From NCBI GenBank assembly GCA_016183805.1, contig JACPDX010000005.1:24813-88812 (forward strand): a DNA stretch of 64,000 nt, in the 5' to 3' direction. Of this stretch, positions 25,231-53,647 are shown in pieces. Each line of letters starts with the position of its first letter. Positions within the stretch are counted from its first letter, which is position 1. The stretch comes from Bacteroidota bacterium (GTDB lineage Bacteria; Bacteroidota; Bacteroidia; Flavobacteriales_E; Vicingaceae). The notes beneath the pieces are model-generated. The model was not told the origin of the DNA. It searched no databases and saw nothing but the letters and a program-made list of their open reading frames with translations. The translations under genes were made by a program, and so were the position numbers.

Positions 25231-25270
25231 AAAACGTAGCCCACGATTTAAATCGTGGGCTATGTTTTTT
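25231..25270. terminator. Bidirectional rho-independent terminator between convergent genes
   Basis: A-tract, perfect palindrome TAGCCCACGATTTAAATCGTGGGCTA (25237-25262), T-tract. Confidence 0.85.
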
Positions 25271-25776
25271 TAATTGGTTCTGTACTTGTAGTTAAAACTT
25301 GCCAATTCTTCATTTGCTTTTACCATTTTTGTTTTTAAGTTGTTTTTGTAAGCAACCGTTTTTTGATAAATGGTTTCATAGCCAGTTCCTATCATTTGTG
25401 TGGCTAAAATAGCAGCATTTAAAGCTCCATCTACGGCAACTGTGGCAACAGGAATTCCGGGTGGCATTTGTACAATTGCCAAAAGGGCATCCAAACCATC
25501 AAAACTAGCATTAATTGGAACGCCAATAACTGGTAGCGGAGTTAAAGCAGCAACAACTCCAGGTAAATGTGCCGCCATACCAGCAGCAGCAATAATTACT
25601 TTAACGCCATTTTGTTTAGCGTTTTTAGCAAATTTTTCAACTTCATCAGGAGTTCGGTGTGCCGATAAAGCATTTACTTCAAACGGAATTTCCATTTCAT
25701 CAAAAAAATCAGCAGCCTTTTGCATCACTTTCCAGTCGTTAGTGCTTCCCATTATTATACTTACCAGTGGTTTCAT
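25270..25776 (-). CDS. purE: 5-(carboxyamino)imidazole ribonucleotide mutase
   Basis: VSIIMGSTNDWKVMQKAADFFDEMEIPFEVNALSAHRTPDEV...AAGMAAHLPGVVAA. Confidence 0.95.
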   Translation of the reverse strand: MKPLVSIIMGSTNDWKVMQKAADFFDEMEIPFEVNALSAHRTPDEVEKFAKNAKQNGVKVIIAAAGMAAHLPGVVAALTPLPVIGVPINASFDGLDALLAIVQMPPGIPVATVAVDGALNAAILATQMIGTGYETIYQKTVAYKNNLKTKMVKANEELASFNYKYRTN

Positions 25777-26014: not shown

Positions 26015-26479
26015 ATGGCAACAATCAAAATAAAAGATTTATCGTTTAAACCGTTTATTAACGAAGATGAGTTACAGCCACTCATTAAAAAGGTAGCTAA
26101 TCAAATTAACAAAGAATATGCAGGTAAATCGCCATTATTTTTGTTTGTTAAATTGGCTTCGTACGAAGGAACAGAAAGTAAAGGCACAGTAAATGAACTG
26201 ATAGGTTTAAACGAAAGCCTGGAAGGAAGAGATGTGATAATTGTTGAAGACATTGTTGATACAGGAAATACGTTGGAAAAATTATATCAAATTATTCTTG
26301 ATAAGAATCCAAAAAGCTTAAAAATAGCTACATTGTTATACAAACCAGAGGCATACAAAAAAGACTTTAATATCGATTTTGTTGCCAAAGAAATACCAAA
26401 CAATTTTGTTGTCGGATATGGTTTGGATTATGATGGGTTTGGAAGAAACTTAAGTTCAATTTATGTGTTAAATCAATAA
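26015..26479 (+). CDS. hpt: Hypoxanthine phosphoribosyltransferase-like protein, apparently lacking an internal segment
   Basis: FVKLASYEGTESKGTVNELIGLNESLEGRDVIIVEDIVDTGNTL and FVVGYGLDYDGFGRNL; 154 aa; PLFL joined directly to FVKLASY. Confidence 0.85.
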   Translation: MATIKIKDLSFKPFINEDELQPLIKKVANQINKEYAGKSPLFLFVKLASYEGTESKGTVNELIGLNESLEGRDVIIVEDIVDTGNTLEKLYQIILDKNPKSLKIATLLYKPEAYKKDFNIDFVAKEIPNNFVVGYGLDYDGFGRNLSSIYVLNQ

Positions 26480-26490
26480 ATAGTAAGTCT

Positions 26491-27081
26491 ATGTTGAATA
26501 TCGTATTATTTGGCCCTCCGGGGGCAGGAAAAGGAACTCAGGCAGAAAAACTTATTGCTAAATACAATTTGTGTCATCTTTCGACAGGTGATATTTTTAG
26601 AGCAAACATTAAAGGCGAAACCGAATTAGGTAAACTTGCAAAAAGTTACATGGATAAAGGAGAATTAGTTCCTGATTCGGTAACCATTGCCATGTTAGAA
26701 TCGGAAGTAAATAAAAATCCAACAGCACAAGGTTTTATTTTTGATGGGTTTCCAAGAACCACCCCACAAGCCGAAGCATTAGCAGCATTTTTGAATTCAA
26801 AAGCAACCGATGTTTCTGTAATGTTGGCTTTAGATGTTGAAGAACAAGAATTAATCAATAGATTATTGTTACGAGGGAAAAATAGCGGAAGAGCCGACGA
26901 TAGCGATGAATCAATTATTGCGAATAGAATAAAAGTTTACAACGAACAAACTGCTGTAGTTGCCGATTTTTATGCAGCTCAAGGAAAATTTGAAAAAATT
27001 GTAGGTAAAGGTGGGATTGAGGCTGTTTTTGATAAATTGTGTAAAGCTATTGATAAATATAAACAGGTAACTAGTAATTAG
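26491..27081 (+). CDS. adk: Adenylate kinase
   Basis: MLNIVLFGPPGAGKGTQAEKL...LSTGDIFRANI...FDGFPRTTPQAEAL. Confidence 0.97.
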   Translation: MLNIVLFGPPGAGKGTQAEKLIAKYNLCHLSTGDIFRANIKGETELGKLAKSYMDKGELVPDSVTIAMLESEVNKNPTAQGFIFDGFPRTTPQAEALAAFLNSKATDVSVMLALDVEEQELINRLLLRGKNSGRADDSDESIIANRIKVYNEQTAVVADFYAAQGKFEKIVGKGGIEAVFDKLCKAIDKYKQVTSN

Positions 27082-27121: not shown

Positions 27122-28111
27122 ATGGCAAGCACCAACTTTATCGACTACGTAAAAATACATTGCCGTTCAGGTAAAGGTGGAGCCGGTTCACGACATTTTC
27201 GTAGAGAAAAATATGAAGCTAAAGGTGGTCCAGATGGTGGTGATGGTGGTCGTGGTGGGCATATTATTTTAAGAGGTGATAAAAATTTATGGACACTTTT
27301 ACACCTAAAGTATAAACGACACGTTAAAGCGGGGCATGGCGAATCTGGTGGAGAATCGAGAAGCACAGGAGCCGAAGGTGAAGATACTTACGTTGATGTA
27401 CCGTTGGGTACTATTGCTAAGGATCCTGAAACAGGAGAGGTATTGTTTGAAATTACCGAACACGGTGAAGAACACATTTTAATTGCAGGTGGTAGAGGAG
27501 GAAAAGGAAACGACCATTTTAAATCGGCAACCAACCAAGCTCCTATGTACGCTCAACCTGGTGGCGATAGTGAAGAAGGTTGGAGAGTTTTAGAACTTAA
27601 AGTGTTGGCTGATGTTGGTTTGGTTGGATTTCCAAATGCCGGTAAATCAACTTTACTTTCGGTTATATCGGCTGCAAAACCAGAAATTGCCGATTATCCG
27701 TTTACTACCATTGTTCCAAATTTGGGTATGGTTCCGTATCGCGATTACCGTTCGTTTGTAATGGCTGATATTCCCGGTATTATTGAAGGTGCTCACGAAG
27801 GTAAAGGTTTAGGAATTCGATTTTTGAGACACATTGAGCGTAATGCTGTGTTGCTTTTTATGATTGCTGCCGATAGCGATGATATTAATAAGGAATACCA
27901 AACCTTGCTTAATGAAATAACCCAGTTTAATCCGGAATTATTAGATAAAAATAGAATATTAGCTATTTCTAAATCCGATTTATTGGATGATGAACTAAAA
28001 GCTGAAATTGAAAAAGACTTGCCAAAAATCCCATACTTGTTTATTTCATCAGTAGCCGAACAAGGTTTGATGGAATTGAAAGATTTGCTTTGGGAAAAAA
28101 TTAACGAGTAA
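27122..28111 (+). CDS. obgE: GTPase Obg/CgtA
   Basis: Gly-rich N-terminal Obg fold; [32 protein letters not shown]...[17 protein letters not shown]. Confidence 0.97.
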
Positions 28112-52523: not shown

Positions 52524-53647
52524 ATGGAAAACATAAAAGTTGGAGTATTAGGAGCAGGTTCAATGGGCTCCGGAATTGTACAAATTGCTGCAACACAAAA
52601 ACACCAAACGGTGTTGGTCGATTTGAATGAGGAAGCGTTAAACAAAGCCGCCGCTAATTTGAAGAACATTTTAGCAAGATTGGTGGAGAAAGATAAAATT
52701 GACCAGGCTACAGCAGATGTAATTATGGGAAGAATCACGTTCTCTAAAAACATTGCTGATTTTAAGGAGTGCGACATGGTTATCGAAGCCATTGTAGAAA
52801 ACTTAGAAGTAAAAAAGAAAGTTTTTGCTCAACTAGAAAGCATAGTTTCTCCCGATTGTATTTTAGCGAGTAATACTTCTTCGTTATCCATTGCTTCTAT
52901 TGCGTCGGCGTGCAAAAAAGCCGAACGAGTAATTGGCATCCACTTTTTTAATCCGGCACCCTTGATGCCATTGGTGGAAATTATTCCTGCGGTGCAAACG
53001 TCGGAAGCAACTACTACCAATTCAAGAACATTAGTCGATAGTTGGAAAAAAGTAACGGTTTTAGCTAAAGACACTCCTGGTTTTATTGTAAATCGAGTGG
53101 CTCGTCCGTTTTATGGCGAAGCACTAAAAATATACGAAGAAGGAGTTGCCGATTTTGCAACCATCGATTGGGCAATGACCGAAATAGGTGGTTTTAAAAT
53201 GGGTCCATTTACGTTGATGGATTACATTGGTAACGACATCAACTATACGGTAACCGAATCGGTATTTGCAGCTTTTTATTACGACCCACGCTACAAACCA
53301 TCGTTTACGCAAAAACGTCGTACCGAAGCGGGTTGGTTTGGACGAAAAACAGGTAGAGGTTATTACAACTAAAAGACGAAAAACTTGGTAAAGAAATTTG
53401 CGATAGAATATTGGTAATGTTGATGAATGAAGCTATTGATGCCTTGTTTTTAAATATTGCCAGCAGAGAGGATATCGATTTAGCCATGACCAAAGGAGTA
53501 AATTACCCGAAAGGTTTATTGGCTTGGGCTGATGAAATGGGTTTAGCAAACGTATTGGCAAAACTCGAACACCTTTTTGCAGAATATGGCGAAGACCGCT
53601 ATCGACCAAGTGTATTGTTGAGAAGAATGGTAAAATCCCATCCCTAA
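52524..53647 (+). pseudogene. paaH: 3-hydroxyacyl-CoA dehydrogenase (PaaH-like), split into two frames
   Basis: ORF 52524..53372 (NAD-binding and first C-terminal domain, ends GRGYYN*) followed in another frame by KDEKLGKEICDRILVMLMNEAIDALFLNIASREDIDLAMTKGVNYPKGLLAWADEMG (second C-terminal domain) through 53647. Confidence 0.85.

Follow-up and report, generated by a model that had tools for sequence, protein, structure and literature searches.

The window analysed here, meaning the whole stretch of 64,000 nucleotides taken from the Bacteroidota bacterium assembly GCA_016183805.1 (contig JACPDX010000005.1, positions 24,813 to 88,812 of the forward strand), contains an hpt gene (HPRT) with conserved, intact neighbours (Table 1). 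As assembled, the gene translates to KEYAGKSPLFLFVKLASYEGTESKG. Compared with the orthologues in the other three members of its genus, each of 178 residues, exactly 24 residues (72 nt) are absent and the reading frame is kept; the missing block falls between PLFL and FVKLASY and spans from the last part of a core strand, through the LNG of PPi loop I and helix 2, to the beginning of the strand that follows. In an alignment of 47 sequences, the block includes the nearly invariant columns L, N, G, F, F, D, and L. Since it holds these columns and is kept in the 39 other hpt genes of the family, the missing block is more than chance variation. The flanking parts of the protein (residues 1-43 and 44-154) are retained, with the PRPP motif EDIVDTG and the C-terminal GYGLDYDG kept at their invariant positions and the SY of the flexible loop also intact. 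A sequence-only reading had described an hpt lacking about 24 residues including LNG and otherwise in frame through VGYGLDYDG; the genus comparison and the alignment bear out both statements. Among the few odd residues outside the gap is SKG at window positions 26177-26185, where relatives have the flexible-loop (S/T)TG.

Table 1. Features of the hpt locus and of the other affected sites (window coordinates unless a contig of the same genome, G000, is named)
Feature	Position	Strand	Remarks
purE	25270..25776	-	conserved neighbour, intact
hpt (HPRT) ORF, as assembled	26015..26479	+	154 aa, ATG start; TIGR01203 and PF00156 matches
Join in hpt	26143..26144 (about)	+	72 nt missing; the 24 residues are found in all relatives; no N in assembly
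adk	26491..27081	+	conserved neighbour, intact
obg-type GTPase gene	27122..28111	+	conserved neighbour, intact; 84-94% identity to same-genus genomes; name from sequence reading
Loss in 3-hydroxyacyl-CoA dehydrogenase gene (about 52524-53647)	53370..53371	+	no N; frameshift splits the gene, which is one ORF in G002 and G003
rpoC (L142)	G000:C86, about 65087		frameshift in invariant core motif
Thiolase, 3-oxoadipyl-CoA type (L139)	G000:C86, near 13.76 kb		frameshift, no N
porG, T9SS (type IX secretion) (L134)	G000:C29, near 29.5 kb		in frame, no N
N run, 64 nt	G000:C29:8401
N run, 35 nt	G000:C29:43217		interrupts a gene
N run, 21 nt	G000:C57:33684
N run, 7 nt	G000:C42:27346

Outside the missing block, the protein resembles known bacterial HPRTs. 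It matches the Pfam PRT domain PF00156, and its nearest solved structures are HPRTs (for example, PDB 4qri, 4rqa, and 2geb), with which and with the NCBIfam HPRT family TIGR01203 it shares residues 1-43 and 44-154, EDIVDTGNT, GYGLDYDG, and the gene order purE-hpt-adk-obg; as assembled, it differs from them by the lack of 24 residues, with which PPi loop I, helix 2, and segments of two core strands are gone. Against TIGR01203 it scores 132.9 bits, below the cut-off of 150, with the best stretch covering profile positions 57-166 of 167, and this low score is most likely due to the loss of the 24 residues. In HPRTs, PRPP or PPi is bound by a non-proline cis peptide in this loop (PMC5081515), and the cis-peptide loop has been called essential across PRTs (PMC12102755). 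It is missing from the assembled hpt, although its L, N, and G are nearly invariant in relatives, and we think its absence most likely reflects loss in assembly.

AlphaFold2 predicts a recognisable PRT fold for the short protein (mean pLDDT 86). In the model of a full-length sister protein, the lost part runs from the last residues of strand 41-45 through the LNG loop and helix 50-59 into the beginning of strand 65-75, and the short model is without a whole strand-helix element that is confidently predicted in the full-length one. Foldseek comparisons to HPRTs give target-normalised TM-scores of 0.59-0.74 for the short form and 0.76-0.92 for the full-length form. As predicted, the short form is still HPRT-like, and the models leave the question undecided.

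By gene order and sequence, the window gene is the syntenic orthologue of the genus copies: the order purE-hpt-adk-obg is collinear with G001 and G003. There are nine PRT-domain matches in the genome (hpt, PyrR, a PyrR-like protein, OPRT, APT, UPRT, PRPP synthetase, a ComF-like protein, and one further PRT), and none of them is a second HPRT, an XPRT, or a GPT. A search of the genome with the full-length sister protein, down to E = 10, did not recover the missing piece elsewhere. The possibility raised earlier that the gene is a repurposed paralogue is therefore rejected on the conserved gene order, the orthology to the genus copies, and the lack of the second full-length hpt that the same reading had proposed to look for.

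We aligned the gene with its relatives, as had also been suggested, and none shares the short form. An hpt gene is present in 40 of 46 genomes of the family, and all 39 others match at full length and in one piece, including those of all three other members of the genus. In a sample of the phylum, 355 of 393 genomes have hpt; no other short hpt occurs among the matches listed for these 355 genomes, about 200 of which are known only as one match per genome, leaving a short form among them possible. A two-piece match is found only in the window genome and in G265, where the gene is cut by contig ends, so G265 is not a second short form. An ancestral short form can likewise be dismissed, with none found in the family or among the phylum matches listed. 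In the hpt of the Bacteroidales MAG Prado082 (L056:258-707), about 28 residues are absent in frame after LNGVF up to STG; this is a different break from that of the window gene and, being MAG-derived, a candidate only.

What remains of the window gene evolves as an ordinary hpt would. Its branch length is 0.145 compared with 0.149 in the sister genome, while the adk and purE branches are longer here than in the sister, and outside the gap a single column conserved at 93% departs from the consensus, by a conservative change from Y to F. No relaxed selection on the remnant is seen in branch lengths or conserved columns; codon-based dN/dS is uninformative because synonymous sites are saturated. 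Given the normal evolution of the remnant, the gap must be very recent if it is real at all; that a remnant so ordinary had lost an essential catalytic loop led us to search for base losses across the assembly.

We compared 431 kb of the window genome with 1.2 Mb from G002, a genome of the same genus, through 126 pairs of reciprocal best protein matches (40,770 aligned amino acids). In the window genome, five conserved genes show losses that carry no N, ranging from 31 to 117 nt: 31 in the dehydrogenase, 35 in rpoC, 47 in the thiolase, 72 in hpt, and 117 in porG. In the reverse direction, none of the 126 pairs shows a loss of more than 10 residues in G002. The loss in rpoC removes NRAPTLHRLGIQ immediately before the catalytic NADFDGD motif; the lost stretch is intact in five relatives, at 95-100% identity, and the genome has no further copy of rpoC. 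RpoC is indispensable to cells. Since a cell with a broken single-copy rpoC could not live, the rpoC loss is an assembly error and not biological, and the dehydrogenase loss is probably an assembly error of the same kind. The losses in hpt and porG are multiples of three, and those of 31, 35, and 47 nt are not; two in-frame losses out of five are what chance would give, and the retention of the frame in hpt therefore needs no selection. The same 431 kb contains four short runs of N, marking it as a scaffolded draft in which gap sizes are estimated. Control genomes also show split ORFs, but judging by where they lie, such as opposite a long ORF, these seem to be shadow ORFs or natural variants rather than broken conserved genes.

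We consider it highly probable that the hpt gap is an assembly artefact, in which draft building dropped 72 nt from the middle of an otherwise ordinary hpt. This reading is favoured by the absence of the short form from close relatives and, above all, by the four comparable losses, one of them in single-copy rpoC, which the hpt gap matches in size, kind, and cleanness. Two pieces would have been joined across a stretch that was left out, without an N to mark it; we infer that the hpt gap shares its origin with the other losses, probably a scaffold join at which the gap was estimated as zero or less. In the organism itself, HPRT is very probably normal, with a length of about 178 residues. Several losses of tens of bases without N, an indispensable gene included, resemble the gap-closure and small indel errors of drafts and MAGs; the hpt loss differs in being in frame, so that gene callers give an intact-looking ORF. 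That the gap is in frame and leaves a tidy ORF is a point against an artefact, as is the fact that hpt can be dispensed with, as rpoC cannot: several relatives with nearly complete genomes do without it. Alternatively, a true and recent in-frame deletion, in the strain or in part of its population, could have inactivated HPRT, with hypoxanthine and guanine salvage lost and purines made de novo. Such a loss would be survivable, as the absence of hpt from relatives (no match in G015, G042, or G047, which are 97-100% complete) and the presence of de novo purine genes indicate (purE in the window, purH, and a PurF-like gene that scores below its family cut-off here and in all relatives compared); HPRT seems to have been lost repeatedly in this class. 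The normal rate in the remaining hpt suits a very recent event, and the different 28-residue gap in the unrelated MAG L056 offers a parallel, though one that is likewise MAG-derived. A real deletion would nevertheless leave four other losses of like kind that are implausible as biology, that in rpoC above all. It also lacks the T/G-rich microhomology at the join that had been proposed in its favour: in eight intact relatives, used as a stand-in for the sequence before deletion, the two breakpoints have only 0-1 nt in common, which speaks against a microhomology- or repeat-mediated event, and the end similarity at offset 72 is unremarkable, ranking 23rd to 111th of the 140 offsets from 20 to 159. 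Nothing sets the T/G-rich string apart from ordinary AT-rich coding sequence. On this balance, we regard a true deletion as improbable.

It is very unlikely that the short protein is a working HPRT, or a repurposed paralogue, in which the loop is not needed. The ORF is open, the other active-site parts (SY, EDIVDTG, and GYGLDYDG) are intact, and a PRT fold is predicted with the confidence given above; however, the gene is the only hpt of the genome and a syntenic orthologue rather than a paralogue, no relative in the family or among the phylum matches listed has this form, PRPP or PPi is bound by a cis peptide within the lost loop, a part described as essential in PRTs (PMC12102755; PMC5081515), and the model is without a whole strand-helix element. 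We give hardly any credence to a variant in which a natural HPRT has lost the loop and helix 2 by in-frame deletion but the protein is still kept, perhaps because it serves as a subunit that binds nucleotides without catalysis or poisons dimers. Among the three options that the sequence-only reading had left side by side, an assembly artefact is thus the best supported; the paralogue is rejected, and deletion through microhomology has lost both its microhomology and, with similar blocks dropped elsewhere in the assembly, its singularity. Because an in-frame loss of this kind leaves an intact-looking ORF, it goes unflagged by annotation and completeness checks and may pass for a striking enzyme variant; seeing whether the same breakage affects an indispensable gene, in this case rpoC, allows artefact to be told from biology without reads.

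Two further observations concern the surroundings of hpt and its superfamily. The hpt and adk genes, separate in the window, are fused in several genera of the family (L015, L025, and L027-L031), where the single ORF measures about 380-406 aa; such a bifunctional HGPRT/adenylate kinase is known from Zobellia galactanivorans (PMC7326950). The PyrR-like protein of the window genome (L074:1429-1992, on G000:C9) is a divergent second PyrR-like phosphoribosyltransferase, scoring 88.7 bits where the PyrR cut-off is 138.
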